64,000 bases of DNA, taken from NCBI RefSeq assembly GCF_001529295.1, contig NZ_LLWK01000038.1, positions 124,001 through 188,000 of the forward strand. Direction: 5' to 3'. Source of the DNA: Flavobacterium sp. TAB 87. Lineage in GTDB: Bacteria > Bacteroidota > Bacteroidia > Flavobacteriales > Flavobacteriaceae. The notes beneath the pieces were generated by a model that did not search any database, was not told where the DNA came from, and saw only the letters and a program-made list of their open reading frames with translations. This document shows positions 5,154 to 23,308 of the stretch, in pieces. The translations under genes and the position numbers were made by a program. How positions within the stretch are numbered: the stretch's first letter is position 1; every line of letters begins with the position of its first letter.

Positions 5154-7451
5154 CTATAACTGATTAACATAAGTTGCAAAATAACCACATTCACGAATTA
5201 CATCCTTGTAATAATGGGTGTCCGAGTAGTCGTTTTGCAGTGATTTAAATCCGCTCCAAGCTTTGAAATTTATTTCATCACCGTAAACATCCCAATAATC
5301 TTTATTGAGAGCGTAATACCTTTTATTATAAAAATCATTGCGCTCGCATTTGGCTAATAAGTACATGCATTTGGCTTTTTGTTCTTTTGTCGTAGCTGCT
5401 GCTAGCGCCATTTGATAGTACATTTTTGAAACGGAACAATCGACAATCATCTTTTTCATCGGTTCTCTAAAATAAGTCGGATTAGAGCCATAACCGACTA
5501 TACTTTTCTCATAAAAAGTTCTCGCATTGCCAAAGTGAGATATATTATAAAACGCATTTCCTAATAATAAGCTGTTGTTATACACATCTTCGTTTTGAAT
5601 TACCTTAGTTTGCATCTCACTCAGCAAAGTAAGAAAATCAATTTCTGTAAACTTCCTTTTTTGATTCGCCGAATGGTCACAATCATGACAGTCTTTAATT
5701 GTACCGTTGAATGGGTTTCCTAAAAGTGTACTACTTCCTAAACTATCTCCTTCATTCATAAATGCAATCGCTTCTGGTATTTTATTTTGGAATGTTGCTT
5801 TTATTGCTTGAAAATTAGAAATATCGCTCACATCCAATGTATAAATAGCAGCGCCAATTTCTTCTATTTGTGTTTTGTTCTTTTTAGATAGAAAAGCTTT
5901 CATCGCTAACAAATCTTTCTCATTATCATAAAAAGCATTACCGGTATTTCCCCAATAATCATCTTGAGATTGACCAAAAATTTCTGCCATTACTTTATTT
6001 CCTTGATCTTTATAAAGCGCTGCTAAATACATTTTACTCCAACTTGAAGCATTTTGATATCTAAAAACACTTTCTTCATTTTCAGTTTTGGGCAATTCTT
6101 GGTACAACCAATTTAAATCTTTCAGAATTATTTTTTCGTTTTTAGCGTTCAACTTTTCAATTGCACTTAAATTATTCACAAATCGAAGCAATCGCAATTG
6201 GTTTGTAGCCAGCGCTGTTTCAGGAAGTTCTTTTGCCGCTTTAATAAAACTTTCGTTTGCCTTTTTATAATCGCCACTTAAAGTTTGCAAATAACCCGCC
6301 GCCATATTCCACATAAAAGGCTGGTTTGTTTTTCCAGACGCTGCAATTTTTGTAACCAATGCCAAAGTTGTTTTGCTAATTTTAAGTTGTTCCTTTTTCT
6401 TATTGGCAGCAAGCGAATTGTCCTTAAAAGAATTGTCTGCTTTATTTTCCTGATTGTTTACCAATCGGGTCAATAAATAATTAAGATGCTCGCTTGAAGG
6501 TTGTAAATCAAAAATTTTAGAAATTGCCTCTTCCTCGTCGTTATAATATGCTCGAATCGCCCAAAGTGCTACTTGCTCGTCGGTGTTTTTGGCCATTTGC
6601 AACGATTGATTCCAGTCTGCATCTTCTTCTGGATGAAAACTATAAGCCGCTACAATTCTCATTTCGGGACATTTATCAAATACTCGACTGTACAAATAAT
6701 TAGAAGTTGCATAATTGCCTTGCTTGTAATTGATACCCGCTAAATAACCAATTGCACGATAATACAAACTGTTTTTAGGAACCAAAGCCTCGGTTTTATT
6801 AAAAAATGTAATCGCATTTTCTTTAGAACTGCTATAAAAATAAGCCTTGATCGTTTGAAACCAATACCTGTTTTTAAGAAATTCATCTTTAGTGGTATTG
6901 TATTTATTCTCAATTTCTTTAATCAACTTTAAGTCATCAAAGCTTTTAGTAACGACAGGCTCATAACTCCATCTTTCGTCAGAAATTGAAGCCGTTTCAA
7001 TTTGTTGCGCTAGGTATAAAAACGCTATAAATTCTTTAGTCTTTGTATCTTTTAAATCAATTTTAGAAGCATAGCCAACCGAAGATTCATTTTTGTTCTT
7101 TGTTTTATAAAAGGAATACAATTCTTGAACCGCAATTTTTCGATCGCCATTTAATAAAAAAGCATTCACTTCCTCTGGCTTCATTTTTCCTTTTAAGAAC
7201 GATTGCCAGTCAGATGTAATTTGATCGTTAAAACGTGAATTGTGTTCGGTATCAAATCCAATTCGGTAAAAAACATCTCCCGATAAGAATAAAGGCGCAT
7301 ACGATGGATCTACAAATGTCTCGGGCGTAAAATTAGAGTTAGTGCCAAAATAGTTCCAATCGCCATCTGCGCAAGCGTAAATTATACCACCTACAAAAAG
7401 TCCGAGTACACTAAAAGCGAGTACTAACTTGTTTAAAAATACTTTTTTCAT
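5154..7451 (-). CDS. Uncharacterised 765-residue envelope protein with TPR-like helical repeats
   Basis: I do not recognise a named family. The N-terminus has a hydrophobic signal (residues 8-27, LNKLVLAFSVLGLFVGGIIY) followed by AC, which could be a weak lipobox. After that come many helical, Tyr/Asn/Lys-rich repeats of the tetratricopeptide kind, for instance the blocks around TNYLYSRVF and GDYKKANESFIKAAKELP. A CHDCDHSANQ segment sits near residue 590. The gene overlaps the 3' end of the upstream lipoprotein gene by 41 bp in another frame, so the two are probably translationally coupled and act together at the cell envelope. Confidence 0.75.
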   Translation of the reverse strand: MKKVFLNKLVLAFSVLGLFVGGIIYACADGDWNYFGTNSNFTPETFVDPSYAPLFLSGDVFYRIGFDTEHNSRFNDQITSDWQSFLKGKMKPEEVNAFLLNGDRKIAVQELYSFYKTKNKNESSVGYASKIDLKDTKTKEFIAFLYLAQQIETASISDERWSYEPVVTKSFDDLKLIKEIENKYNTTKDEFLKNRYWFQTIKAYFYSSSKENAITFFNKTEALVPKNSLYYRAIGYLAGINYKQGNYATSNYLYSRVFDKCPEMRIVAAYSFHPEEDADWNQSLQMAKNTDEQVALWAIRAYYNDEEEAISKIFDLQPSSEHLNYLLTRLVNNQENKADNSFKDNSLAANKKKEQLKISKTTLALVTKIAASGKTNQPFMWNMAAGYLQTLSGDYKKANESFIKAAKELPETALATNQLRLLRFVNNLSAIEKLNAKNEKIILKDLNWLYQELPKTENEESVFRYQNASSWSKMYLAALYKDQGNKVMAEIFGQSQDDYWGNTGNAFYDNEKDLLAMKAFLSKKNKTQIEEIGAAIYTLDVSDISNFQAIKATFQNKIPEAIAFMNEGDSLGSSTLLGNPFNGTIKDCHDCDHSANQKRKFTEIDFLTLLSEMQTKVIQNEDVYNNSLLLGNAFYNISHFGNARTFYEKSIVGYGSNPTYFREPMKKMIVDCSVSKMYYQMALAAATTKEQKAKCMYLLAKCERNDFYNKRYYALNKDYWDVYGDEINFKAWSGFKSLQNDYSDTHYYKDVIRECGYFATYVNQL

Positions 7452-8415
7452 AATTCTTTAAATTCAATTCGTCTAAGTCGTAAAAAATAATTTCTTTAGG
7501 TTGTTGATTTAAATTTTCTTGCAAATCACTAGCCATTTCTTTTAAATCAGCCGCACTTATAGCTTCGATTTTTACAATATCTTCTCTTTGATAAAAAACT
7601 CCTTTTCGATAATTAGACTTGTTCACTCTAAAAGTTATTTCATCAATTTCAGTAAAATTTTTATCTGATTGCAAATCTTCGACCGTTAATTTACTTCTTA
7701 AACCCACAATAGCATTATCTCTAATATGAATTCCCCAAGCATAAATTGGTAACGCTATATTTAGAGGTAACGGATATTTTTTTAAACTAGATACATACCG
7801 CTTCGCAATTCCTCTATCATAGATTGAGTTCAACGATTCTACTGCAATAGTTCCCATATTATAATACATTAAAACACCCGAATCCACATTTGGAATTTTA
7901 GTTTTTTCGAAATATTTAACCTGATGCAATCGAATCGTTGCCGATAATTTTTTGTTCGAAATACGCTTGAAACTTTCTATAAACGCCAAATAATTAGACT
8001 TGCTTTTTAACGTCCAGTCACAATCAATTTGAATTTCATTACAAGAAAGTTTATTCTTTAAATTGATTAGTTCCACATAATCAAACGTTTTTTGCGCTAA
8101 TTCTTCCACATTCAAATTATCCTGCAGCATGACATTGTTTTTAATGTAAATGACAGGAACAATGTTTTTAATTTGTGGTTTATGAAGGAAATGGATTGGA
8201 CTTCTTGGAAATGCTTCTTTAGTTTTGATATCTAAATCAACATCAAAATAGCGAACGTACAACTTCTGAACGTTATTTCCGTCTAGCGTCTCCTGTTCAA
8301 GCGGAGTCAATTGGTAATTGGTTTTCCAATAATAAAACGAGATTACGGGGCTCTCTTTTTTATCACAAGAAATAAGTATAAAAAATAAAAAAATATATAG
8401 AAATTGCTTTTTCAA
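7411..8415 (-). CDS. Uncharacterised lipoprotein, partner of the 765-residue protein
   Basis: This is a 334-residue protein without a recognised function. I place the start at a TTG ending at 8415, because it gives a perfect lipoprotein signal (MKKQFLYIFLFFILISC, cysteine 17). No ATG is available, and another TTG lies at 8439. The mature part has features of a TIM-barrel-like polysaccharide-binding or hydrolase-related fold (VDLDIKT, IQIDCDWTLKSK, LPIYAWGIHI), but this is only an impression. It is transcribed first and its last 41 bp overlap the start of the 765-residue gene, a strong sign of coupling. Confidence 0.7.
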   Translation of the reverse strand: MKKQFLYIFLFFILISCDKKESPVISFYYWKTNYQLTPLEQETLDGNNVQKLYVRYFDVDLDIKTKEAFPRSPIHFLHKPQIKNIVPVIYIKNNVMLQDNLNVEELAQKTFDYVELINLKNKLSCNEIQIDCDWTLKSKSNYLAFIESFKRISNKKLSATIRLHQVKYFEKTKIPNVDSGVLMYYNMGTIAVESLNSIYDRGIAKRYVSSLKKYPLPLNIALPIYAWGIHIRDNAIVGLRSKLTVEDLQSDKNFTEIDEITFRVNKSNYRKGVFYQREDIVKIEAISAADLKEMASDLQENLNQQPKEIIFYDLDELNLKNYEKSIFKQVSTRF

Positions 8416-8596
8416 AAAAAATAGATTTAATACTAACAAAAGTAAGAAATCACTTGATGAGAAACCAATTATTCACGATTTTTAAAATGAACAAAAGACT
8501 TCTTATTTAATTCTATATTCCTTAATAATTCATTAAAAAATTTCAATTACAGTAAATATAATCGTTATTTTGTGCTACTAATTTTCAATAGAAATC

Positions 8597-11193: not shown

Positions 11194-11230
11194 TGCAAAA
11201 AAAATGCATTTGTTTTGCAAATAAATTGCA
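11194..11230. promoter_or_regulatory. Array of four TGCA repeats with 11-bp period upstream of susC
   Basis: TGCA occurs at 11194, 11205, 11216 and 11227, each exactly 11 bp from the next, with A/T-rich spacers (AAAAAAA, TTTGTTT, AATAAAT). Because TGCA is self-complementary, each pair is both a direct and an inverted repeat. The last copy overlaps the TTG (11226-11228) of the putative -33 box. This looks like a multi-site operator for the locus regulator, most simply the DeoR-type protein encoded at 20047-20820. Confidence 0.65.
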
Positions 11231-11257
11231 TTGTTATTAAATTAATATATATATTTG
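11226..11257 (+). promoter_or_regulatory. Promoter of the susC operon
   Basis: TTG at 11226-11228, 21 bp, then TATATTTG at 11250-11257, a full match to the Bacteroidota -7 consensus TAnnTTTG. Transcription should start near 11263, which leaves a leader of about 38 nt containing a short ORF. The -33 TTG is shared with the fourth TGCA repeat. Confidence 0.7.
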
Positions 11258-11274: not shown

Positions 11275-11304
11275 ATGGTAAACATGAAAACCAACCACTT
11301 ATGA
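11275..11304 (+). CDS. Nine-codon leader ORF overlapping the susC start
   Basis: ATG at 11275 opens a short frame (MVNMKTNHL) that stops at TGA 11302-11304. That stop overlaps the susC ATG as ATGA. A second in-frame ATG lies at 11284. It starts about 12 nt after the predicted transcription start. This could be a translational-coupling leader for susC, or it could be chance; no ribosome-binding site is obvious for either frame. Confidence 0.35.
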   Translation: MVNMKTNHL

Positions 11305-14300
11305 AAAAAAAGCTATTTTCATTACTGTTTATTGGGGGGATGATCCTCTCGGCAAACGCCCACGAACCTGCGATCACAACAAATCTTTTTGACCAACAAG
11401 CCAGTCAGATTGAACTTTCAGGCCAAGTCATTGGACAAGATGATGGAATACCAATTGCCGGAGCAACTGTTTATGCCAAAGGCAACAATAGAGTGGCAAC
11501 CATAACCGATGAATCAGGAAGATTTAAACTTAATGTTCCCGAAGGCGAAACCCACATTTTGATAACGTATATGGGTTATGAAACAAGCGAATATAAAATC
11601 GATAGAACAACTGATTTTATAGTAAGTTTAAAACCAGCCGAAAATGCACTTGATCAAGTAATCGTAACTGCATTAGGAGTTAAAAAAAGCAGCAAATCTA
11701 TTTCTTATGCGGTAACAGAACTTAAAGGAACTGAATTTACCAAAGCAAAAGAAACAAACTTTGCAAATGCGCTCGTTGGAAAAATTGCAGGTGTGAATGT
11801 AAATAGCACCTCAACAGGACCTAGCGGTTCTACTAGAGTTGTAATTCGTGGAAATGGTTCATTAAACGGAAACAATCAGCCAATGTATGTGGTAAATGAT
11901 TTGCCAATAGACAATACACAACTTAATTTACCAGGTATTGGAAACGGACCTGGCTCAACCAGAATAAATGTTGATAGAGGAGATGGAACTTCGGTTATTA
12001 ATCCAGATGACATACAAAGTATTACAGTTTTAAAAGGAGGAACTGCTGCGGCTTTGTACGGCGCAAATGCTGCGAATGGTGTGATTTTAATTCAAACCAA
12101 GCGAGGAGCAATACAAAAAGGAATTGGCATAGAATACAACTCTTCTTTTACTTTTGAAACGCCATCGATTGTTCCAGATTGGCAATATGAATATGGAGCG
12201 GGATCGTTAGGCAAAAAACCAACTACTCAAGCTGGGGCGGTATCAGATGGCCGATGGTCTTGGGGAGCAAAAATAGATGGCTCAAACGTGATACAATTTG
12301 ATGGAGTAGAAAGACCATATGTTGCACAAAAGGACAATATTAGAAACTTTTACAGAACAGGAACCACCTTTATAAACTCGATTGCCTTATCTGGCGGTAG
12401 TGAAAAAGCTACAGGACGGATCTCTTTTTTGAACATGGACAACGAGGGCGTTGTTCCTAATAATGATTTCAATAGAAAAAGTGTAAATATGGCAAGCAAT
12501 GTCAAAGTTACCGACTGGTTGAAATTTGATGTTGTAGCGCAATATAATACTGAGAAATCTAACAATAGAGTAACTGTTTCTGATGCTGAAGCAAACCCGA
12601 ACTGGGGAACTTATATGCTAGCTAACACGGTTGATATTAGAAATTTGAACCCAGGTTATGGTGAAGACGGAATTGAAGAAGCTTGGAATCCTGTGGCAGT
12701 GGCTACAAATCCTTACTTTGCTGTTAATAAAATCAAAAATGAAGATACCAAAAATCGTTTTATCGGAATGTTAAATGTGAAGTTAAATTTCACTCCACAG
12801 TTATTCTTACAAGGAAGAATTGGGCAAGATTTTACCGATTATGATTTCTTTGGTTACATTCCCAAAACGACTTTAAACAATCCTGTTGGTTATGCACAAG
12901 GTTCAAATATGAAATTGACCAATTTGAACTCTGAAGCAATTTTAAATTACACGAAGAAAAATTTCTATAAAGATTTCTCATTGAATGCTTTAATCGGTGT
13001 AAATTCTAGAACAACCTTAAGAGATGAAATTAGAGTAGAAGGATCCAATTTTGTTTTGGACGATTTTTATGCTTTAACCAATTTGTCTACATTGGCCTAT
13101 AGTTATCCCTACGGAAAAACAAAAACTAATTCAGTTTACGCTGCTGCAGATTTTGATTTCAAGAACATTGTTTTCTTAAACTTCACTGGGCGTCAAGATT
13201 GGTTTTCTACGCTTGCAGCAGAGAACAACACAGTGTTTTATCCATCTGTGGGAACGAGTATTATATTATCTGACATCGTTAATATGCCAGAATGGGTTTC
13301 ATTTGCCAAAGTAAGAACATCATGGGCTGAAGTTGGTGGAGCCACTCCAGATCCATACGCTTTAAAGCAATCTTATTCTATGATTCAAGGCGGGCACAAT
13401 GGACAACAACTGCAAGGTCTAACTAGTTCTAGAGTTCCAAATTCGACTTTGAGTCCTTTAACTTCTACCACATTTGAAATTGGTGCAGATTTAGGATTTT
13501 TCAATAATCGTTTAAACTTTGATTTTGCTTGGTACAACCGTGCAACTACAAATGACATTGTTGAAACTACAATTTCTAATGGTTCAGGCGCAAGCACCGC
13601 TTTGCTAAATCTTGGAAAAATGAGAAACAAAGGAATTGAGTTTTTGCTTAGCGGAAAGATCATCAATTCGGACAATTTTTCATGGGAGTCTAGCTTCAAC
13701 GGTTCATACAATCAAAACACTGTAGAGGCACTTACAGATCAATTGAACTCTATAACTATGGCTACTTCTGTAAACGGTTATGCTACAATTACTAGTGATG
13801 TTGGTCGTCCATACAGTACTATAAAAGGGTATAAACCACTTAAAGACGCAAACGGAAATACAGTTTATAATGTAAGTGGAGCATCCGCCTCTATTGCTCA
13901 AGGGCCTTTAGAAGAATTAGGTGAAGGAGTTCATCCGTGGTCTGCTGGTTTTAGCAACGAATTCAAATACAAATCTTTGTCTTTCAGTTTTTTAATCGAT
14001 GGTAAATTTGGCGGAAGCTTATATTCTGGAACTGATTTATATGGAACGCGTATGGGGTTGACAAAGTTAACTTTGGAAGGTCGCGATGGCGGCTTACCAA
14101 TTAAAGGAGTAGATACTAAAGGCAACGCAGTTGATATGGTGATCGCTCCAGAAAACTTAAGAACCTATTACGACGGCTTAAGAAATATATCTTCGACGTT
14201 TGTCTATGATGCAAGTTTTATAAAATTAAGACAAGTGATTATTGGTTATGAACTTCCAATTGACAAGATTCAAGGTTTGTCTAAACTTCAGGGCGCTTCT

Positions 14301-14456
14301 GTTTCATTTGTTGCAAGAAATTTATTTATTCTCTACAAGAAAACAGAGAACGTAGATCCAGAATCTGTATTTAGTGCAGGAAATGCGCAAGGTGTAGAGC
14401 AATTTGGAGTTCCAAAAACAAGAAGTTTCGGTTTAAGTCTAAACGTTAAATTCTAA
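11301..14456 (+). CDS. SusC/RagA-family TonB-dependent outer-membrane transporter
   Basis: A TonB-dependent channel for oligomeric nutrients. At 1051 residues it has the family's usual size. In order: signal peptide (residues 1-20, ending SANA), a carboxypeptidase-D-like regulatory domain (about 37-112, with GQVIGQDDGIPIAGATVYAKG), the TonB-box area and plug (115-260, with RGNGSLNGNNQPMYVVND and the ITVLKGGTAAALYGANAANG block), and a 22-strand barrel ending in phenylalanine (SLNVKF). It is the first gene of a plus-strand operon and is followed after 11 bp by susD. The operator-like TGCA array and promoter lie just upstream. The substrate is not readable from the sequence; the neighbours suggest a D-amino-acid-containing compound. 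Confidence 0.96.
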   Translation: MKKKLFSLLFIGGMILSANAHEPAITTNLFDQQASQIELSGQVIGQDDGIPIAGATVYAKGNNRVATITDESGRFKLNVPEGETHILITYMGYETSEYKIDRTTDFIVSLKPAENALDQVIVTALGVKKSSKSISYAVTELKGTEFTKAKETNFANALVGKIAGVNVNSTSTGPSGSTRVVIRGNGSLNGNNQPMYVVNDLPIDNTQLNLPGIGNGPGSTRINVDRGDGTSVINPDDIQSITVLKGGTAAALYGANAANGVILIQTKRGAIQKGIGIEYNSSFTFETPSIVPDWQYEYGAGSLGKKPTTQAGAVSDGRWSWGAKIDGSNVIQFDGVERPYVAQKDNIRNFYRTGTTFINSIALSGGSEKATGRISFLNMDNEGVVPNNDFNRKSVNMASNVKVTDWLKFDVVAQYNTEKSNNRVTVSDAEANPNWGTYMLANTVDIRNLNPGYGEDGIEEAWNPVAVATNPYFAVNKIKNEDTKNRFIGMLNVKLNFTPQLFLQGRIGQDFTDYDFFGYIPKTTLNNPVGYAQGSNMKLTNLNSEAILNYTKKNFYKDFSLNALIGVNSRTTLRDEIRVEGSNFVLDDFYALTNLSTLAYSYPYGKTKTNSVYAAADFDFKNIVFLNFTGRQDWFSTLAAENNTVFYPSVGTSIILSDIVNMPEWVSFAKVRTSWAEVGGATPDPYALKQSYSMIQGGHNGQQLQGLTSSRVPNSTLSPLTSTTFEIGADLGFFNNRLNFDFAWYNRATTNDIVETTISNGSGASTALLNLGKMRNKGIEFLLSGKIINSDNFSWESSFNGSYNQNTVEALTDQLNSITMATSVNGYATITSDVGRPYSTIKGYKPLKDANGNTVYNVSGASASIAQGPLEELGEGVHPWSAGFSNEFKYKSLSFSFLIDGKFGGSLYSGTDLYGTRMGLTKLTLEGRDGGLPIKGVDTKGNAVDMVIAPENLRTYYDGLRNISSTFVYDASFIKLRQVIIGYELPIDKIQGLSKLQGASVSFVARNLFILYKKTENVDPESVFSAGNAQGVEQFGVPKTRSFGLSLNVKF

Positions 14457-14467
14457 ATTACACAAAA

Positions 14468-15997
14468 ATGAAAAAGATAACAATTTTATATATGGCAGGT
14501 ATACTTTTAGGAAGTATGAGTGCTTGTACCCAGGATTTCGAAGATATAAATACGAATCCAAATGTCGTTGAAAAACCAAATGCAAATTACGTATTTAGTA
14601 AATCGCAGCTCGATGGTTTAAACAATAATTATTTTTTTACCAATGTCTTGGAATGTGGTGGCATGTTGCAACATTATGCAACGTACAAAGAAGCATCTGG
14701 AGTTGGGGACAAATACTTAAGCAACGAAGTATATTTTTCAGCTTATTTCAATCAGGTTTATCCAACGGCAATAAACGAAATTGAAATCGTAATTGATGCT
14801 GTTAAAAACAATCCTGAGGACAGCAACAAATTGAATATTGCAAGAATCTGGAAGGCTTATTTATATCATAGAGTCACAGATTTGTACGGCGACATTCCAT
14901 ATACTGAAGCGGCGAAAGCGAATACATCGCAAATATTTCTTCCAAAATATGACAAACAAGAATTCATTTATAAAGATTTATTAAAAGAACTAGATGAAGC
15001 TGCTTTAGCTTTGGATCCTGCAAAACCAACTTTTGGTAAAGCGGATTTAATCTATGATGGAGACGTAGCAAAGTGGAAAAAGTTTTCTTATTCTTTAATG
15101 CTTCGCCTTGGCTTAAGATTATCTAAAGTAGATGGAAATCTTGCAAAAACTTGGGTAACAAAAGCGATTGCTGGTGGTGTCATTTTAAATGGAAATGACA
15201 ATGCCATCATGAAATATACAGATGGACCAAATGACTTTAATAAAAATCCAGCTGGATTTGATGCAAGAAAACAAGATTTTACACAAGGATCTTTTGGGAA
15301 AACAAATGTTGAAGGCGGGAAATTATCTAAAACATTTATTGACTTTTTACAAACTACCGCTGATCCTAGAATTAATGTTTATTCTGGAGTTTGGGAAGGA
15401 ACAGTTCAAAATAATAATGCTGCTATACAAAAAGGTTTTCCTAATGGACTTAAAATTGCTCCTACGCCAGTAGAACAGGCCACATTTTCAGAGCCTAACC
15501 AAGCGACTGTCTTTAAGTTTGACGCGCCTCTTGTAATTATAAGCAATGTGGAGACACATCTTTATTTAGCCGAAGCCGCTGCTCGAGGCTGGTATACAGG
15601 TGAAACTGCACAAAATTTATATGAAAATGGTGTAAAAGCCTCGTTTTTAAACATGGGTATTTACGGTAGTAGTTATGCAATTGCTGATGCAACACCATAC
15701 TTAACTGCAAATCCATTTAATGCCGCTGGATCATTAGAAGATAAATTAAACCAAATTAATACCCAGATTTGGGTAGCATTATTTGTAGACGAACAAGAAG
15801 TTTATGCCAACTGGAGACGAACGGGATATCCTGTATTAACGCCAGTGAATTTTCCTGGCAATGTTACAAACGGAACGATCCCAAGACGTTTGAAATACCC
15901 AACAAGTGAATATTCAGTAAATTCTGTTAAATTAGCTGCTGCCATAGAGCAACAAGGAGAAGATAATTTCACTACTAAAATGTGGTGGGATAAATAA
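14468..15997 (+). CDS. SusD/RagB-family nutrient-binding outer-membrane lipoprotein
   Basis: This is the surface lid of the SusC channel, which captures the ligand before transport. It is a 509-residue lipoprotein with signal peptide and lipobox (SMSAC, cysteine 20), followed by the SusD hallmark DFEDINTNPN. The helical TPR-like part shows RIWKAYLYHRVTDLYGDIPYTEA, and the C-terminal region has LFVDEQEVYANWRRTGYP. This last motif places it in the SusD-like_2 group, members of which often sit with peptide- or amino-acid-related genes rather than glycan utilisation loci. It is in the operon between susC and the GntP permease. Confidence 0.95.
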   Translation: MKKITILYMAGILLGSMSACTQDFEDINTNPNVVEKPNANYVFSKSQLDGLNNNYFFTNVLECGGMLQHYATYKEASGVGDKYLSNEVYFSAYFNQVYPTAINEIEIVIDAVKNNPEDSNKLNIARIWKAYLYHRVTDLYGDIPYTEAAKANTSQIFLPKYDKQEFIYKDLLKELDEAALALDPAKPTFGKADLIYDGDVAKWKKFSYSLMLRLGLRLSKVDGNLAKTWVTKAIAGGVILNGNDNAIMKYTDGPNDFNKNPAGFDARKQDFTQGSFGKTNVEGGKLSKTFIDFLQTTADPRINVYSGVWEGTVQNNNAAIQKGFPNGLKIAPTPVEQATFSEPNQATVFKFDAPLVIISNVETHLYLAEAAARGWYTGETAQNLYENGVKASFLNMGIYGSSYAIADATPYLTANPFNAAGSLEDKLNQINTQIWVALFVDEQEVYANWRRTGYPVLTPVNFPGNVTNGTIPRRLKYPTSEYSVNSVKLAAAIEQQGEDNFTTKMWWDK

Positions 15998-16011
15998 TAA
16001 TAGTGATATTT

Positions 16012-17331
16012 ATGAGTATTTTAATTCTTACCGCATGTATTGTTTTTTTAATTCTGCAAATAACGTGGTTTAAAATTAATCCTTTCCTTGCCTTTGTTTT
16101 TACCTCCTTACTAGCTGGCTTCTGTTTAGGACTACCTATTGATAGTTTGGCACCATCCATCGAAAAAGGTCTGGGCGAAATGTTAGGTGCTGTCGCACTG
16201 ATTATTATATTTGGAACTTGCATTGGTAAACTAACTGTAACTTCGGGTGCAGCAACTAGTATTGCACAAGCTGTAATGCAATTTACCGGTGAAAAATACA
16301 TTCGCTTAGGTTTAATGATTACAGGCTTTATTGTTGGCATTCCACTTTTTTACAGCGTGGGTTTTGTTTTATTAGTTCCGCTTATTTTTTCCGTCGCACA
16401 TCAATTTAAATTACCAAAAGTATATTTAGGAATTCCGATGCTAGCCTCTCTTTCTGTAGCTCACGGCTTCTTGCCTCCTCACCCGTCCCCAATGGCGTTG
16501 AGTCAAGTACTTAATGCAGATCTTGGGCTAGTTTTGGTTTACGGTATCATCATTGCAATTCCAACTATTTTAATCGCGGGCTTGTATTTTTCTAATTTTC
16601 TTAAAAACATAAAAAGTGAACCAACCGACGGGATTTTAAAAATCAACGAACTAAAATTACCTGCCAAACTTCCTGGATTTGGTATCAGTTTATTTTCGTC
16701 TCTTTTTCCTGTTTTTGGTTTAACACTTACCACACTCTTACCTTTAGTTTTCAAGAATGAGCAACTTGAACTAATCTGTAAAACAATTGGTCAGCCGACC
16801 ATAATAATGTTAATATCTGTTATCCTTTGTACCTATACATTGGGTTTACGAGTGGGACGTTCTATAAAATCAATAATGGACGATTATAGCGAGGCGATAA
16901 AAGATGTTGCACTAATTATCTTTATTTTAGGTGGCGCAGGTTGTTTAAAAGAAATTATGGTTGCAAGCGGAGTGGATCAATCTATTGTAGCATTGCTAAA
17001 CCAAGTAAATATTCATCCCTATTTATTAGCATGGATGATGGCAGCGATTCTTCGCATTTGCGTTGGTTCTGCTACTGCTGCGGGTTTAATGACGGCCAGC
17101 GTTTTACTGCCTTTATTACAACTGAGCGGCTTAGACTCTAATTTGTTAGTATTATCCATCGGTGCCGGAAGCTTAATGTGTTCGCATGTTAACGATCCTG
17201 GTTTTTGGATGTTCAAAGAATATTTTAATATCAGCTTAAAAGACACTTTTAAATCATGGACCGTAATGGAATCTTTGGTGTCTGTTTTAGGAATTGTTTT
17301 CGTTTTTATATTAAACTCAATTATACATTAA
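16012..17331 (+). CDS. GntP-family permease (gluconate / D-serine DsdX type)
   Basis: An inner-membrane proton symporter of the GntP family, which includes gluconate carriers and the D-serine carrier DsdX. The 439-residue protein is almost entirely hydrophobic, with about 12-14 membrane spans. Family motifs are clear: GIPLFYSVGFVLLVPL, AHGFLPPHPSPMALS and the C-terminal SHVNDPGFWMFKEYF. I prefer the ATG at 16012; a GTG three codons earlier (16003) is possible. It lies 14 bp after susD and 3 bp before ridA. Next to a D-amino-acid PLP enzyme and a dipeptidase, a D-serine-like substrate is more plausible than gluconate, but this is inference. Confidence 0.9.
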   Translation: MSILILTACIVFLILQITWFKINPFLAFVFTSLLAGFCLGLPIDSLAPSIEKGLGEMLGAVALIIIFGTCIGKLTVTSGAATSIAQAVMQFTGEKYIRLGLMITGFIVGIPLFYSVGFVLLVPLIFSVAHQFKLPKVYLGIPMLASLSVAHGFLPPHPSPMALSQVLNADLGLVLVYGIIIAIPTILIAGLYFSNFLKNIKSEPTDGILKINELKLPAKLPGFGISLFSSLFPVFGLTLTTLLPLVFKNEQLELICKTIGQPTIIMLISVILCTYTLGLRVGRSIKSIMDDYSEAIKDVALIIFILGGAGCLKEIMVASGVDQSIVALLNQVNIHPYLLAWMMAAILRICVGSATAAGLMTASVLLPLLQLSGLDSNLLVLSIGAGSLMCSHVNDPGFWMFKEYFNISLKDTFKSWTVMESLVSVLGIVFVFILNSIIH

Positions 17332-17334
17332 ATC

Positions 17335-17799
17335 ATGAATTCTGCACAAGAAAAATTTGAATCATTAGGATTGTCATTGCCACCAGCACCACAACCATTA
17401 GGAATTTATAAACCATTTTTAGTTGATGGGAAGTACTTATATCTATCTGGACATGGTCCGGTACAAGATGATAAGTCTTTAATTATCGGAAGAATTGGCG
17501 ATGATATGGATATCGAACAAGGGAAATTAGCGGCAAGACAAGTGGGCTTGACCATGTTATCGACCATTGTGAGCAACTTTGGAAGTTTAGACAAAATAAA
17601 AAGAGTCGTTAAAGTACTCGGAATGGTGAATTGCAACAGTTCTTTTGAGCGCCATCCGTATGTGATTAATGGTTGCAGCGAATTATTTGCTGAAATATGG
17701 GGACAAGAAAATGGAATTGGGGTTAGAAGTGCTGTCGGAATGGGCTCATTGCCCGATAATATTCCAGTTGAAGTAGAAGCTTTATTCGAATTATATTAA
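17335..17799 (+). CDS. RidA/YjgF-family enamine/imine deaminase
   Basis: RidA proteins hydrolyse reactive 2-aminoacrylate and related imines made by PLP-dependent dehydratases. This 154-residue member belongs to the longer RidA-like subgroup. The family arginine is present in GVRSAVGMGSLPDNIPVEVEALFEL, and SGHGPVQDD and NCNSSFERHPYVINGCSEL are typical of the subgroup. It starts 3 bp after the permease and is 45 bp from the PLP enzyme gene, the expected source of its substrate. This supports a dehydratase or deaminating step in the pathway. Confidence 0.92.
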   Translation: MNSAQEKFESLGLSLPPAPQPLGIYKPFLVDGKYLYLSGHGPVQDDKSLIIGRIGDDMDIEQGKLAARQVGLTMLSTIVSNFGSLDKIKRVVKVLGMVNCNSSFERHPYVINGCSELFAEIWGQENGIGVRSAVGMGSLPDNIPVEVEALFELY

Positions 17800-17844
17800 A
17801 AATCTCTTTTTAATCATTTTATCTAATTTAGAAATAAGAAAAAG

Positions 17845-18960
17845 ATGCAAAATAATTGGTGGAAAATAAATCGCGACACACAAATAGACACTCCTTTCTT
17901 GGCTGTCTACGAAGATCGCATGCAATCGAATATAGACAGTTTGATTGCAGCGGTTCAAGGTGATCTTTCGAAATTAAGACCGCATATAAAAACGCATAAA
18001 ATTGGTGAAGTTTTAGAATTGTTCAAGAAAAACAACATAGACAAGATAAAGTGCGCTACGATTGCTGAAGCAGAATTGGCGGCAATGTACCAAGTTTCTG
18101 ATATTTTATTAGCGTATCAACCTGTCGGATTAAAAAAGCAGCGATGGATAACGCTTATCGAGAAATATCGTGATGCCACATTTTCGACCATTGTTGACAA
18201 TTTAAAATCTGCCAAAGAACTGAATACTATTGCTAAAAAAAATAACCTTCAGCTGACCGTTTATTTAGATTTGAATACTGGAATGAATCGAACGGGAGTT
18301 GCACTTTCTGAAGATTGGATTTACCTTGCTAGATCAATTATGAAATTGAAGCATTTACACTTCGTCGGATTTCATATTTATGACGGTCACGTAAAGGGAG
18401 CAATTGAAAATCGTACTGTCGAAGTTGCCGAATCTTTTCAAAACATAATCGCGAATATTAATCAATTGCAAGAAGAGACCAATCAAAAATTTTTGGTTGT
18501 TGCCGGTGGCTCTAATACTTTTCCGTTTTATGCGACGCAAGAAAATGTAGAATGCAGTCCCGGAACTTTTATTTTCTGGGATTTAAATTATTCGACTAAT
18601 TTACCCGAACAAGATTTTAAAACCGCAGCTGTACTTGTAGGTACTATAATTTCTCAACCTACTCCAACTACGTTTTGCATCGATATTGGCTACAAATCTG
18701 TTGCATCAGAAAACACTTTAGACAAACGATTGGTTATTATAAATGATGAAAATTTAATTCCAATTTCACATTCCGAAGAGCATTTGGTTTTAGAGAATCA
18801 CGGTAATTATAACTACAAAGTAGGCAATACCATTTATGCGCTGCCGTATCACGTGTGCCCTACTTGCAATTTATATGAGACGGTTCAAGTTGTAAATAAC
18901 CAGAAAGACATCTACACGAACTGGAAAGTTCTTGCCCGAAATAAAAAAATAAGTATCTAA
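17845..18960 (+). CDS. D-threonine aldolase / D-serine dehydratase-like PLP enzyme
   Basis: A fold-type III (alanine-racemase-like) PLP enzyme of the D-TA/DSD1 family, 371 residues. The PLP lysine is K49 in LRPHIKTHK. Zn or Mn ligands of the family are present as H336 and C338 in PYHVCPTCNLYETV. Other signatures are YLDLNTGMNRTG and VAGGSNTFPFY. Family members cleave D-threonine or other beta-hydroxy-D-amino acids to glycine plus an aldehyde, or dehydrate D-serine to pyruvate and ammonia. The adjacent RidA gene favours a reaction through an enamine. The exact substrate cannot be told from sequence. Confidence 0.9.
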   Translation: MQNNWWKINRDTQIDTPFLAVYEDRMQSNIDSLIAAVQGDLSKLRPHIKTHKIGEVLELFKKNNIDKIKCATIAEAELAAMYQVSDILLAYQPVGLKKQRWITLIEKYRDATFSTIVDNLKSAKELNTIAKKNNLQLTVYLDLNTGMNRTGVALSEDWIYLARSIMKLKHLHFVGFHIYDGHVKGAIENRTVEVAESFQNIIANINQLQEETNQKFLVVAGGSNTFPFYATQENVECSPGTFIFWDLNYSTNLPEQDFKTAAVLVGTIISQPTPTTFCIDIGYKSVASENTLDKRLVIINDENLIPISHSEEHLVLENHGNYNYKVGNTIYALPYHVCPTCNLYETVQVVNNQKDIYTNWKVLARNKKISI

Positions 18961-18979
18961 TAAGTAAAACCAAAAATGT

Positions 18980-20050
18980 ATGTTTATAATTGATGCCCAT
19001 CTGGACCTTAGCATGAATGCGATGGAATGGAATAGAGATTTAAGAAATGAAGTTCCTGTTCTACGAAATTTAGAGAAAGGAATGACCGACAAACCAGATC
19101 GCGAACGCGCGACTGTTTCTTTACCTGATCTACGAAGAGGAAATATTGGAATTGTTGTAGCTACGCAAATTGCGCGCTTTGTAAAACCCGAGAGTAAAAT
19201 ACCTGGTTGGAATTCTCCTGAGCAAGCTTGGGCGCAAACGCAAGGACAATTGCAATGGTACAAAGCGATGGAAGAAGCGGGAGAAATGACTGCTATCACT
19301 GATAAAAAATCGCTCCAAAAGCAATTGGATTTGTGGAATGACGGAACTGCTAATGAGAAAAAGCCAATCGGTTATATTTTGAGTTTAGAAGGAGCCGATT
19401 CTATAGTTGATCTCTCTTATCTCGAAAAAGCATACAATTATGGACTTCGTGCTATCGGTCCCGCACATTACGGACCAGGTAGATATGCCAATGGAACCGA
19501 TGCGACTGGAAAAATGAATCAAAACGGTTTAGATTTACTAACAGAGATGCAACGCTTGAATATTATTCTCGATGCGACTCATCTATGCGATGATGCATTT
19601 TGGCAAGCGCTAGATCATTTTAATGGACCAATTTGGGCGAGTCATAATATGTGTAGAAGTTTAGTTAATCATAACCGACAGTACAGTGATGAGCAACTTA
19701 AAGCATTGGTAGAAAGAGGCGCCGTAATTGGTGGCGCATTAGATGCTTGGATGTTAGTACCTAATTGGGTACGTGGCGTTTCGACTCCAACTAGCACAAA
19801 TTGCAACTTAGAAACGGTTTTTAAGCACATGGATCATATTTGCCAATTGGCTGGAAATGCTAATCACGTTGGAATTGGGTCAGATTTGGATGGTGCTTTT
19901 GGAACCGAGCAATGCCCATCTGACTTAGACACAATTGCTGACCTTCAAAAATTAGTAACCATTTTTAGAACTCAAGGATACGCTGAAGATGATTTAAATA
20001 AAATTTTCCATCAAAACTGGATTAACTTTTTAATGAAAAACTGGGATTAA
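18980..20050 (+). CDS. Membrane-dipeptidase-family (M19) dipeptidase
   Basis: A zinc dipeptidase of peptidase family M19, 356 residues. The HxD metal motif is H7-D9 (IDAHLDL), followed by the bridging glutamate (LSLEGAD), ILDATHLCDDAFWQAL, WASHNMCRSL and the late VGIGSDLDGAFG motif. There is no signal peptide, so it should be cytoplasmic. Known M19 enzymes such as renal dipeptidase accept dipeptides with a D-residue at the C-terminus. That fits a pathway feeding the neighbouring D-amino-acid PLP enzyme. An out-of-frame ATG lies 4 bp upstream (18976). Its stop codon shares bases with the stop of the convergent regulator gene. Confidence 0.9.
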   Translation: MFIIDAHLDLSMNAMEWNRDLRNEVPVLRNLEKGMTDKPDRERATVSLPDLRRGNIGIVVATQIARFVKPESKIPGWNSPEQAWAQTQGQLQWYKAMEEAGEMTAITDKKSLQKQLDLWNDGTANEKKPIGYILSLEGADSIVDLSYLEKAYNYGLRAIGPAHYGPGRYANGTDATGKMNQNGLDLLTEMQRLNIILDATHLCDDAFWQALDHFNGPIWASHNMCRSLVNHNRQYSDEQLKALVERGAVIGGALDAWMLVPNWVRGVSTPTSTNCNLETVFKHMDHICQLAGNANHVGIGSDLDGAFGTEQCPSDLDTIADLQKLVTIFRTQGYAEDDLNKIFHQNWINFLMKNWD

Positions 20051-20820
20051 AGAAATTTTAACGTGGGAACTTTTAGTTTGTATCGCTTTAATTTCTCGTG
20101 GTTTGGTTCTACATCAGTGATAATGTAATCGACCTCTGATAATTTAGCAATTCTCATTTTCTGAACGGTGTCTAACTTTTCAGAAATAGTTAATATAGCT
20201 GTTTTTTGAGAGGCTTTTATCATAGCTTTTTTAACCTGAACAGTATCCCAGTCAGAATCTGAGAATCCGCCTTTAACGTCTAGAGCATTCGTGCCAAGTA
20301 TTAGTAGATCAGCACTAATTGTACTTAATTGGTTGTACACATCACCGCTTACGCACATCTGACTGTAAGGAGAAATACTACCGCCAATCATGATTACCTT
20401 GACATTGGGTTTGTCTAAAAGTTCTACAGCAGAGAGAGCCGTCACTGTAAAAACAGTCAAGTTCATATCATTTGGAATCATTCGTATAAATTCACGAATT
20501 GTGGTACCGCCACCTAATAATAAAACCATTCCATCATGAAGTAAGGTAACCGTTTTTTGAGCTATAATTTGTTTTGCTTCGCTAGCATACGTTTGAGAAG
20601 AAGACGAATGATGATAGGCCTTAGTCATAGCACCGCCTTTCACTTTGATCAACATCGACTCGACTTCTAATTCATTAATGTCACGTCTAACAGTGTCTTC
20701 TGACACAGACAATTGATCTGACAGTGTAGCAAAGTTTACGCGCGTATGCAAATTGATTTCTTTAAGAATATGATTTTTTCGTTCTTCTTTAGAGAAATTT
20801 ACGATTTCGTTAGCATCCAT
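20047..20820 (-). CDS. DeoR/GlpR-family transcriptional regulator
   Basis: This is a 257-residue repressor-type regulator. An N-terminal winged helix-turn-helix (about residues 12-65) carries the DeoR signature, with LSVSEDTVRRDINELE as the recognition part. A C-terminal sensor domain follows, with LLGGGTTIREF and MIGGSISPYS, of the kind that usually binds a phosphorylated small molecule. It is convergent with the dipeptidase gene and shares a TTAA stop overlap with it. It is divergent from the GH20 gene. TGCA-type repeats in both flanking promoters make it the obvious candidate to control the locus and itself. Confidence 0.93.
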   Translation of the reverse strand: MDANEIVNFSKEERKNHILKEINLHTRVNFATLSDQLSVSEDTVRRDINELEVESMLIKVKGGAMTKAYHHSSSSQTYASEAKQIIAQKTVTLLHDGMVLLLGGGTTIREFIRMIPNDMNLTVFTVTALSAVELLDKPNVKVIMIGGSISPYSQMCVSGDVYNQLSTISADLLILGTNALDVKGGFSDSDWDTVQVKKAMIKASQKTAILTISEKLDTVQKMRIAKLSEVDYIITDVEPNHEKLKRYKLKVPTLKFL

Positions 20821-20941: not shown

Positions 20942-20983
20942 TGCAAAAAAATTGCACTCCACATCATTAAATATATAAATTCA
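20942..20983 (+). promoter_or_regulatory. Operator-like TGCA pair and promoter of the GH20 gene
   Basis: TGCA at 20942 and 20953 are 11 bp apart (TGCAAAAAAATTGCA). The second copy contains TTG at 20952-20954, which is followed after 21 bp by TAAATTCA at 20976-20983, a weaker -7 box. The layout (TGCA pair, TTG inside the last copy, 21-bp spacer) is the same as at the susC promoter, which strongly suggests co-regulation. Confidence 0.6.
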
Positions 20984-21004: not shown

Positions 21005-23308
21005 ATGAAAAAAATTGCTGTATTTCTCCTATTCTTAAGTAGTATAATTGCTACCTCTCAAGAACATTTTGTAAATCGCACGATTATTCCCATGCCTAAT
21101 TTATACAAAACAACTGGTGATAGCTTGACTATTTCTGGTAATATAAAAATTATTTTTGAGGGAAATAAATTTAGCGCCAAAGAAGTACAATCAGCTATGT
21201 TATTTCAAGAAGCTGTAAATTCAAATTTCGACAAACAAAAGGCTGCTATAAAAGTTATTTTCAAATCTGAAAGAATAAGTTCCGCAAAACAAACTTCTGA
21301 AGCCTACAAAATAGAAATTTCCCCTAAAGAAATTAGAGTGACCGGACAAGAAATTGGTCTTTTTTATGCCGTCCAAAGCTTATTACAACTATTACCGAAT
21401 GAACCCAAGAACAACGCTGTAAAAATACCCTGTGTAACCATAAATGATGAACCTCGTTATTCGTATCGTGGTTTGCATTTGGATGTAAGTCGTCATTTCT
21501 TTTCGACAGCAGTTATCAAGGATTTCATCGATCAAATGGCTTATTACAAATTAAATAACTTTCACTGGCACTTAACAGACGATCAGGGTTGGCGTATCGA
21601 AATTAAAAAATATCCAAAACTAACTGAGATAGGTTCGAAAAGAGACCAAACCTTAGTAGGAAATAAATTTGAACGTTTTCCGAGATTTTTTGATAATACT
21701 CCTTACGGCGGTTTCTACACGCAAGAAGAAGTTAAGGAAATAGTAAAATATGCCGAATCAAGATACGTTAACATAATTCCTGAAATCGAAATGCCTGGAC
21801 ACGCTTCGGCTGCTGTAGCTGCGTATCCCAACTTAGCTTGTTTTCCTTCTAACGATTTTAAAGTTATCGAATCTTGGGGTATTTTCGAGGATGTATTCTG
21901 CGCTGGAAAAGAAGAAACTTTTACTTTTTTAGAAGATGTTTTAGAGGAAGTTATGATGCTTTTTCCGAGTACCTATATTCATATTGGCGGAGACGAATGC
22001 CCAAAAACAAGATGGGAAAAATGTCCAAATTGCCAAAATAGAATTAAAAAAGAAGGATTAAAAAACGAGCATGAATTGCAAAGTTATTTTATTAAACGAA
22101 TTGAAAAATATCTAAATGCCAATGGAAGACAAATTTTTGGCTGGGATGAAATTCTTGAAGGCGGGTTGGCGCCAAATGCAGCAGTGATGTCTTGGCGCGG
22201 AGAATCTGGTGGAATTGCAGCAGCAAGAGACAAACATGATGTTATTATGACTCCAGAAGAGTATGTTTATTTTGATCACAATCAAGGCTATTCTTTAGAA
22301 GAACCGCTAACTGTTGGCCGCTTGACAACGGTCGAAGAAGTGTATCGATACAACCCAACTCCAGCAGACAGTTTAACTAGTGATCAACAAAAATACATCA
22401 AAGGAGTTCAAGGTAATCTTTGGTCGGAATATTTAACGAGCCCTGCCAAACTAAACTATATGTTGTATCCTAGAATATTTGCTTTAGCAGAAATTGCTTG
22501 GACTGAAACTTCTCAAAAAAATTACACCAATTTTGTTTTAGATCGAATTCCATTTCATTTAGGAAAGTTAGATATGGTAAAACGATTGTATAAAGTACCA
22601 ACTCCTTTCGGAATAAAAGATACTGCAATTGTTGCTTCAAAATATGAATTAAACCTAAAACCAACCGTCAAAAATGGGCAAATATTCTATACAATTGACG
22701 GATATAATCCTGATGAAACTGCCAACTTATACAAAAGTCAAGTTACAATTACAGTTCCCGAAGGAGAACACCGAATAATAAAGGTAGTTCAAATTAGCGA
22801 GAGCGGTAGAAGAAGTTCCATTACCAAAATTGCCGTTACCAATTCAAAAACACTCCCTGCATTAGTTGTTAAACCAAAGAAGAAAGGTCTGAAATACAAA
22901 ATGTACCATAATTTATTTCAACAAACAATCGAAATGAATTTGTTAAAACCTGCCAAAAGTGGTATCCACGAAGGTGCAATCGAAATCGAAAAATACAAAT
23001 CAAAAGAAAATCGCTATTTAGGTCTACAGTTTGAAGGATACATTTACATCTCAGAAACCGATACCTACACTTTTTCAACCATTGCAGACGACGGTGCAAC
23101 AGTAGTAATAGACAATCAATTGATTGTCGATAATGATGGTAGACATTGGATCAATGAAGCTTTTGGTGCATCCAAACTAGAAAAAGGCTTTCACAAAATA
23201 AACATCAATTATTTCAATGCCGATGGAAGTTCAGCGCTACAGTGTTTCATTCAACAACAAGGAAAAGAAAAACAAGAAATTAGCGCTTCGCAATTATTTT
23301 ACGAATAG
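21005..23308 (+). CDS. Secreted beta-N-acetylhexosaminidase (GH20) with PA14-like domain
   Basis: A 767-residue glycoside hydrolase that removes terminal GlcNAc or GalNAc by substrate-assisted catalysis. In order: signal peptide (1-18), GH20b-like N-terminal domain (about 25-148), catalytic barrel (about 150-500) with HWHLTDDQGWRIEI and the catalytic pair D330-E331 in HIGGDECPKTRWE, a chitobiase C-terminal-like segment (about 540-615, with IDGYNPDETANLYK), and a PA14-like carbohydrate-binding domain (about 625-767, with TFSTIADDGATVVIDNQL). It is outside the susC operon but shares its operator-promoter layout. A role in trimming amino-sugar-containing ligands is plausible. Confidence 0.94.
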   Translation: MKKIAVFLLFLSSIIATSQEHFVNRTIIPMPNLYKTTGDSLTISGNIKIIFEGNKFSAKEVQSAMLFQEAVNSNFDKQKAAIKVIFKSERISSAKQTSEAYKIEISPKEIRVTGQEIGLFYAVQSLLQLLPNEPKNNAVKIPCVTINDEPRYSYRGLHLDVSRHFFSTAVIKDFIDQMAYYKLNNFHWHLTDDQGWRIEIKKYPKLTEIGSKRDQTLVGNKFERFPRFFDNTPYGGFYTQEEVKEIVKYAESRYVNIIPEIEMPGHASAAVAAYPNLACFPSNDFKVIESWGIFEDVFCAGKEETFTFLEDVLEEVMMLFPSTYIHIGGDECPKTRWEKCPNCQNRIKKEGLKNEHELQSYFIKRIEKYLNANGRQIFGWDEILEGGLAPNAAVMSWRGESGGIAAARDKHDVIMTPEEYVYFDHNQGYSLEEPLTVGRLTTVEEVYRYNPTPADSLTSDQQKYIKGVQGNLWSEYLTSPAKLNYMLYPRIFALAEIAWTETSQKNYTNFVLDRIPFHLGKLDMVKRLYKVPTPFGIKDTAIVASKYELNLKPTVKNGQIFYTIDGYNPDETANLYKSQVTITVPEGEHRIIKVVQISESGRRSSITKIAVTNSKTLPALVVKPKKKGLKYKMYHNLFQQTIEMNLLKPAKSGIHEGAIEIEKYKSKENRYLGLQFEGYIYISETDTYTFSTIADDGATVVIDNQLIVDNDGRHWINEAFGASKLEKGFHKININYFNADGSSALQCFIQQQGKEKQEISASQLFYE

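Follow-up and report, generated by a model that had tools for sequence, protein, structure and literature searches.

Sugar acids made by lytic polysaccharide monooxygenases (LPMOs) are a part of chitin turnover with a little-known fate. The closest described system for their use is the ong cluster of Pseudoalteromonas prydzensis ACAM 620, which serves oxidative chitin utilisation (PMC9537276). Here, a window of 64,000 nucleotides from Flavobacterium sp. TAB 87 (the whole stretch of DNA analysed; contig NZ_LLWK01000038.1, positions 124,001 to 188,000) was compared with this system. The window contains a six-gene operon that runs from a SusC/SusD pair to an M19 hydrolase and is followed by a GH20 gene. 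We read these genes as a regulon for 2-amino-2-deoxy-aldonates, most likely N-acetyl-D-glucosaminate (GlcNAc1A) from C1-oxidised chito-oligosaccharides, with a probability of roughly 0.64.

The ong cluster encodes two TonB receptors and an SSS carrier, the enzymes beta-hexosaminidase, D-aminoacylase-like deacetylase, pyridoxal phosphate (PLP) dependent deaminase and 2-keto-3-deoxygluconate (KDG) kinase, and a MurR/RpiR regulator, as well as the RidA protein OngD, which is essential but whose role is given as not known (PMC9537276). GlcNAc1A is deacetylated by OngB, a D-aminoacylase-like amidohydrolase (PMC9537276; PMC12017989), and OngC deaminates D-glucosaminate (GlcN1A) to KDG, accepting D-Ser and D-Thr as well (PMC9537276). 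Deletion of OngD, KdgK, OngB or OngC abolished growth on GlcNAc1A. A KDG-6-phosphate aldolase gene belongs to the Vibrio, Klebsiella and Serratia versions of the cluster, and the complete pathway was reported in Gammaproteobacteria and one betaproteobacterium (PMC9537276). In the main text of PMC12017989 the strings 'Bacteroid' and 'Flavobacter' are absent. PMC11653859 describes a search for the pathway in Aeromonas, where it was not confirmed; PMC10535946 mentions it in the introduction and reports an LPMO in the flavobacterium Aquimarina, and PMC12343721 proposes a different, phosphorylated glucosaminate route for archaea. A literature search covering few subscription journals gave, among the papers listed by title and abstract, no apparent description of the operon's gene set in Bacteroidota.

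Operon layout and the proposed chemistry of the PLP enzyme

All six operon families scored above a Pfam or NCBIfam cut-off in hidden Markov model (HMM) searches. The six plus-strand genes are separated by gaps of 11, 5, 3, 45 and 19 bp, and the last 4 bp of the M19 gene are shared with a regulator gene on the opposite strand. The genes, assigned from open reading frames (ORFs) and HMMs, are the following.

11301..14456, plus strand: SusC/RagA TonB-dependent outer-membrane transporter (TIGR04056, 608 bits, cut-off 368)
14468..15997, plus strand: SusD-like lipoprotein, SusD-like_2 (PF12771)
16003..17331, plus strand: GntP-family permease, which would carry (N-acetyl-)glucosaminate across the inner membrane
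17335..17799, plus strand: RidA-type protein, YjgF/RidA (PF14588), proposed to act in enamine/imine hydrolysis
17845..18960, plus strand: fold-type III PLP enzyme, D-ser_dehydrat and Ala_racemase_N, proposed D-glucosaminate dehydratase/deaminase yielding KDG
18980..20050, plus strand: M19 amidohydrolase (Peptidase_M19), putative N-acetyl-glucosaminate deacetylase
20047..20820, minus strand: DeoR-family regulator, convergent with the operon and divergent from GH20
21005..23308, plus strand: GH20 beta-N-acetylhexosaminidase; a PA14 domain is present, and the N-terminus looks signal-like by eye

In the proposed pathway, for which we infer every substrate, the M19 reaction and the transport roles, SusCD would carry oligomers across the outer membrane and the exported GH20 would trim off GlcNAc units, leaving GlcNAc1A. 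GntP would bring GlcNAc1A into the cytoplasm, where M19 would remove the acetyl group. The PLP enzyme would then eliminate water from D-glucosaminate, and the enamine/imine would be hydrolysed with the help of RidA to KDG and ammonia. KDG kinase and 2-keto-3-deoxy-6-phosphogluconate (KDPG) aldolase, encoded in the operon in most of the relatives examined and unlinked in the host, would convert KDG to pyruvate and glyceraldehyde-3-phosphate. No signal-like N-terminus was seen by eye on M19, the PLP enzyme or RidA, and these proteins are therefore read as cytoplasmic. The computed evidence consists of the gene set and its conserved order, a dehydratase-type ligand, an ancestral KDG kinase/KDPG aldolase pair, a common site and co-distribution among genomes.

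The first-pass annotation of this DNA had described the six-gene run, and its coordinates, families and gaps of 3-45 bp were all borne out by ORFs and HMMs, as were residues K49, H336 and C338 of the PLP enzyme by the alignment rows. Its remark that the operon holds no polysaccharide enzymes is correct for the six genes but misleads, because GH20, which starts 0.95 kb past the M19 gene, has the same predicted operator. With a SusC/SusD pair, GH20 and this operator in common, the locus qualifies as a polysaccharide utilisation locus whose co-regulation is predicted.

In the PLP enzyme, H336-x-C338 aligns with the H-x-C of the solved D-serine dehydratase 3anu, whereas the four solved aldolases with a displayed alignment have H-x-D there; for the dehydratases 3wqc and 4pb3 the alignment did not reach the metal-ligand part. 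Of 66 aligned rows, which include the window and some strains twice, 64 have Cys at the place of C338, and the two Asp rows are L062 and the Vibrio gene L088. K49 is presumably the PLP lysine, and H336 and C338 the metal ligands, as in the family. Having the Lys and His-x-Cys set of D-serine dehydratases, the PLP enzyme is by its residues predicted to be of the dehydratase type. D-threonine aldolase (D-TA) proper was rejected, as Cys338 stands where aldolases have Asp. Alignments with 3anu, 4v15 and 6qkb are full-length but low-scoring (49-84 bits), and the NCBIfam BhcC model gave 122 bits against a cut-off of 690. The dehydratase-type Cys ligand makes a beta-hydroxy-D-amino acid a fair substrate class, and RidA fits the enamine/imine product of such an enzyme.

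The neighbours of the PLP gene in relatives point to the kind of acid. GntP, RidA, the PLP enzyme, M19, DeoR and GH20 are each present in 30 of 30 named loci of close relatives (29 records named Flavobacterium and one [Flexibacter] sp.), and 27 of these have KDG kinase and KDPG aldolase inside the operon, directly before the PLP gene. Two extra genes likewise lie between RidA and the PLP gene in four of the seven congeners of a draw across the phylum. They encode a PfkB kinase (PF00294) and a KDPG/KHG-type aldolase (PF01081), both above Pfam cut-offs; the NCBIfam models naming KDG kinase and KDPG aldolase did not reach theirs, so that the names rest on family and pairing. A further sample comprised 160 congeneric genomes, which have strains in common with the 30 named loci and are not independent of them. 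The 23 of these genomes with a PLP (D-TA) ortholog at E <= 1e-40 are here called carriers. The aldolase gene immediately precedes the PLP gene in 14 carriers, and the other nine have a KDPG aldolase elsewhere. The host (3.83 Mb in 38 contigs) carries one unlinked kdgK-kdgA pair, adjoining a gene whose N-terminus resembles LacI by eye.

A rooted tree of GntP, RidA, PLP enzyme and M19 was built from 38 congeneric and six non-congeneric rows. L131 (with kdg pair and SusCD) branches first, then L036 with L132 (also with both), then the window (SusCD without the pair), then the rest, where L117, which has the pair, forms the base. FastTree supports were 0.998 for all but L131, 0.984 for the group lacking L036 and L132 too, and 0.997 when the window is also removed. 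An earlier tree without outgroup did not separate loss from never having had the pair; deeper congeners and an outgroup favoured loss. The favoured history is thus a kdg-containing layout ancestral in the genus, with the pair lost in the window's lineage. Loss there, and independently in other lineages without the pair, is preferred as a simpler history than several gains at a single site.

The kinase and the aldolase belong to a pathway through KDG. For a PLP enzyme to produce KDG with removal of water and ammonia, its substrate has to be 2-amino-2-deoxy-D-gluconate or one of the epimers, and this acid is a beta-hydroxy-D-amino acid. Since the pair is ancestral in the operon and an unlinked pair is present in the host, the product would most likely be KDG, formed from 2-amino-2-deoxy-D-gluconate, which probably arrives N-acetylated as GlcNAc1A and would then be deacetylated by M19. 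The permease scored 461 bits with the gntP (gluconate:H+ symporter) subfamily model, above cut-off, and 408 and 334 bits with two gluconate permease models, the one giving 408 being under its cut-off. DsdX-like D-serine uptake was rejected, as the DsdX model (238 bits, cut-off 618) stayed far under its cut-off and the gluconate models scored higher.

M19 hydrolase, GH20 and the predicted regulon

The M19 family HMM gave 163.7 bits (cut-off 26), and the protein was aligned with the solved relatives 3fdg, 3ly0 and 3neh; the roles of single M19 residues we presume from the family. The congeners with a D-TA ortholog and those with an M19 ortholog are the same 23 among 160, with the two genes side by side, which is more co-occurrence than chance would give. 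M19 orthologs (E <= 1e-100, 81-89% identical to that of the window) are present in exactly the 23 carriers, adjoining the PLP gene, and in none of the 137 non-carriers, which makes M19 a fixed part of the pathway in the genus. Deacetylation of N-acetyl-glucosaminate would be the natural reading of its role. No D-aminoacylase was found among the operon genes by HMM. The host has seven Amidohydro_3 matches, one of them full-length; this protein matched only hutI and Xaa-Pro dipeptidase models, far under cut-off (NCBIfam, E <= 1e-10), a negative limited in that the presence of a D-aminoacylase model in NCBIfam was not checked. A single blastp query with a Haladaptatus D-aminoacylase found no homologue (E <= 1e-4) among the ORFs of 31 Bacteroidota loci.

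A GH20 ortholog of at least 67% identity was found in 23 of 23 carriers versus two of 137 non-carriers; in the carriers the starts of the GH20 and PLP genes are 3.1-4.7 kb apart. A match of lower identity under the same limit was present in another 35 genomes. Adjacency of GH20 alone is no proof, as the flank is conserved too, and tests of distribution and of regulatory sites were therefore added. The motif TGCA-N7-TGCA was derived from words common to the susC and deoR/GH20 promoters.

11194-11208, 11205-11219, 11216-11230: three overlapping TGCA-N7-TGCA sites upstream of susC, predicted DeoR operators
11250..11257, plus strand: TATATTTG, a -7-like promoter element starting 20 bp past the end of the last operator (its consensus we take to be TAnnTTTG)
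20942..20956: TGCA-N7-TGCA site between deoR and GH20 (motif scan)

These four sites are the only ones in the window. Shuffled windows gave 1.45 sites on expectation and reached at least four in 5 of 100 cases; thus the placing of the sites is unusual, their number is not. The window and the 30 named loci together (31 sequences) have 83 sites, and 71 of them fall in the two promoter regions, which occupy 2.3% of all bases; when spacings from 0 to 15 were compared, the runner-up was spacing 5, with 19 of 66 sites in these regions. A site near the first gene was found in 26 of 31 sequences, in three of them inside the ORF as called, the start of which may have been set too early. Between deoR and GH20 a site is present in 25 of 31. 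The support for the motif lies in the agreement between genomes and in its absence elsewhere in the window. Because all four window sites sit in the SusC and DeoR/GH20 promoters, GH20 probably belongs to the same regulon as the operon, and DeoR would repress both through TGCA-N7-TGCA, a binding and a sign that we infer alike. In the two non-carriers with the GH20 ortholog, L120 (G350) and L121 (G382), the DeoR-GH20 pair stands at this place together with a NITR (carbon-nitrogen hydrolase) gene and without a GntP-RidA-PLP-M19 operon.

Distribution of the core and weighing of the readings

Several observations weigh against an oxidised-chitin regulon. The window's own operon has neither KDG kinase nor KDPG aldolase, and SusCD is absent from four of the 30 named loci (present in 26). 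Nothing in the sequence of M19 indicates deacetylation, and its solved relatives are named dipeptidases. The operator motif was discovered in the same regions where it was counted, which is partly circular; of the 31 sequences, five have no site before the first gene and six have none between deoR and GH20. Gene order in the genus is conserved anyway, as a flank of sdhAB size shows, and since L120 and L121 hold deoR-GH20 without the rest of the system, this pair is able to stand alone. GH18 genes, present in 23 of 23 carriers and 26 of 137 others of the 160-genome sample, speak for the regulon, but the comparison is confounded, as carriers are mostly large genomes, a bias that weakens the distribution tests generally; the host has one GH18 match. 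An HMM search found no AA10 LPMO in the host. Among the 160 congeners two had an LPMO_10 match, one of them above cut-off (G299, a carrier). The host, unable to make oxidised chitin by LPMO, must then scavenge it or have another source of the acid. Finally, outside the genus the all-four core was found in 6 of 23 loci, without KDG genes or GH20 nearby, and Parabacteroides shows the same.

In an alternative reading, free D-glucosaminate, or its galacto or manno epimer, is the main substrate, and M19 acts on another amide, for example an aminoacyl conjugate, or has a side activity. Other bacteria oxidise glucosamine to glucosaminate. This alternative accounts for the KDG route, agrees with the dipeptidase names of the M19 relatives, and takes account of the LPMO being found in 1/160 of the genus sample, so that chitin oxidation by the host is not the source. 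We consider it unlikely: the presence of GH20 in the predicted regulon suggests N-acetylated chito-oligosaccharides, and the strict coupling of M19 to the PLP gene (23/23 versus 0/137) suggests an obligatory step.

In the draw across the phylum, the PLP enzyme (E <= 1e-20) was found in 32 of 296 genomes, host included. Neighbourhoods of the other 31 were fetched, and the PLP gene was called in 30 (L058 missed). From six genes before it to five after it lie M19 in 19, a PF14588-type RidA in 17 and GntP in 13 of the 30 loci; all four core genes are present in 13 (seven congeners and six others), KDG kinase and KDPG aldolase in four, all congeners. The GntP-RidA-PLP-M19 core is wider than its SusCD version, and outside the genus it may serve other N-acyl-beta-hydroxy-D-amino acids. 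In Hymenobacter volaticus, RidA, D-TA and M19 stand together.

Some further loci differ in their surroundings. On a 375 kb plasmid of the gut bacterium Parabacteroides distasonis (L087, NZ_OY725779.1), GntP, DUF4833, RidA, D-TA and M19 are followed by genes for a sigma factor, FecR, a TonB receptor and SusD. A different cluster in L042 (and in L041, judging from the sizes and starts of its genes) joins the PLP enzyme and M19 to a class III aminotransferase, a 3-hydroxyacyl-CoA-dehydrogenase-like and a ceramidase-like protein, perhaps for an N-acyl or sphingolipid-type substrate. RidA-PLP-M19 precede a protein of ~866 aa in L039, L040 and L046, which in L039 matches an MGH1/GH63-like hydrolase. 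On a plasmid of the archaeon Haladaptatus salinisoli (L089), genes for a D-aminoacylase and an SSS symporter adjoin a D-TA-like one ('alanine racemase'), an ong-like combination. Vibrio campbellii (L088), inspected for an ong cluster, showed to the eye neither a D-aminoacylase nor a RidA or sugar kinase among its ORFs, and its D-TA gene has the Asp of the aldolases. Within the window, two minus-strand ORFs at 5154-8439 (765 and 342 aa) have no Pfam match at E <= 0.001; an ORF pair of similar sizes lies in the same place upstream in L114-L117, loci without SusCD.

The first-pass annotation had proposed import and breakdown of peptides containing beta-hydroxy-D-amino acids (D-Ser, D-Thr), with M19 cleaving L,D-dipeptides and the PLP enzyme deaminating the product. 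An operon for import and breakdown and a D-amino-acid chemistry of this kind hold up, given the dehydratase-type Cys338 and the fitting RidA. The co-occurrence of permease, RidA and PLP enzyme, without which the proposal was to fall, is found together with M19 in 13 of 30 loci, six of these 13 lying beyond the genus. The peptide diet itself agrees with the M19 and D-serine-dehydratase-type families, with OngC, the nearest functional model, deaminating D-Ser and D-Thr too, and with the lack of KDG genes near the core in the non-congeneric loci examined. It does not agree with a KDG kinase and KDPG aldolase that are ancestral, stand in 27 of 30 operons and would be useless for pyruvate or 2-oxobutyrate from D-Ser and D-Thr, nor with a permease scoring nearer the gluconate carriers than DsdX, and GH20 has the same site and distribution as the operon. 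We regard this diet as distinctly improbable. The placing of the system outside glycan use likewise finds no support, in view of GH20, with its common predicted operator and distribution, and of GH18 in 23 of 23 carriers; and, although the first-pass annotation knew of no characterised system, one of closely similar logic, though of a different gene set, is described in PMC9537276. An amino sugar acid is the more likely diet, and a place within glycan use more likely. A retro-aldol cleavage of D-threonine-aldolase type, giving glycine and an aldehyde from a sugar-derived amino acid, has in its favour that the top-scoring PDB matches 4v15 and 6qkb are aldolases, and is highly improbable with a Cys ligand as in 3anu in place of the Asp of four aldolases and with RidA and a KDG kinase/aldolase pair that fit elimination, not aldol cleavage.

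The regulon for GlcNAc1A extends to a wider and tentative picture, for which the odds are near even, if slightly against. Bacteroidota would own a complete oxidised-chitin route built largely from other families than the gammaproteobacterial one, with an M19 'dipeptidase' serving as de-N-acetylase of a carbohydrate, and the core, which occurs in several Bacteroidota families and also in gut Parabacteroides, would be a general N-acyl-beta-hydroxy-D-amino-acid module, specialised in Flavobacterium by the capture of kdgK-kdgA and GH20.

Comparison with the ong and other systems

The set of gluconate:H+ symporter, RidA, D-TA family PLP enzyme and membrane dipeptidase, annotated by family only in the records of Hymenobacter volaticus and Parabacteroides distasonis, would gain a likely function, and the locus offers a definite test case for a carbohydrate role of an M19 enzyme. 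If the reading is true, Flavobacterium is a scavenger of oxidised chitin left by others, on a route that genome surveys based on OngB would miss. The published pathway is credited to gammaproteobacteria (PMC9537276); Flavobacterium would use other parts, mostly without an LPMO of its own.

We take the DsdX-DsdA D-serine system as a further comparison. Like it, the window combines a GntP-family permease with a PLP deaminase of a D-hydroxy-amino acid; unlike it, the window adds outer-membrane, M19, KDG and GH20 parts. With the dehydratase 3anu and the D-threonine aldolase/BhcC structures 4v15 and 6qkb the PLP enzyme has the PLP fold and the Lys in common, the Cys ligand being as in the dehydratase. 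M19 enzymes, we assume, belong to the amidohydrolase superfamily, as does the OngB family. The same reaction is proposed for the PpOngB family, which is D-aminoacylase-like, of subtype V (PMC12017989), whereas the enzyme of the window is M19.

As in ong, TonB-dependent import, a beta-hexosaminidase, an inner-membrane carrier, a putative amidohydrolase-type deacylase, a fold-type III PLP deaminase, RidA and a predicted repressor are combined. The KDG kinase of ong has no counterpart in the window's operon; in most named relatives it is linked together with the aldolase, and in the host the pair is unlinked. The parts differ: SusCD replaces the OngOT receptors, GntP the SSS carrier OngIT, M19 the D-aminoacylase-like OngB, DeoR the MurR/RpiR regulator and a PF14588 RidA of 154 aa the 127-aa OngD, and the Flavobacterium host has no LPMO. 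A linked beta-hexosaminidase is found as GH20 in 30 of 30 named loci with the common site, corresponding to ong in kind of enzyme, and the fold-type III PLP deaminase with RidA likewise corresponds by kind of enzyme rather than by OngC orthology. Membership of the ong family as such was rejected, since D-aminoacylase, SSS carrier, MurR/RpiR regulator and LPMO were not found. The window's system would thus work like ong at each step without being a member by its parts.

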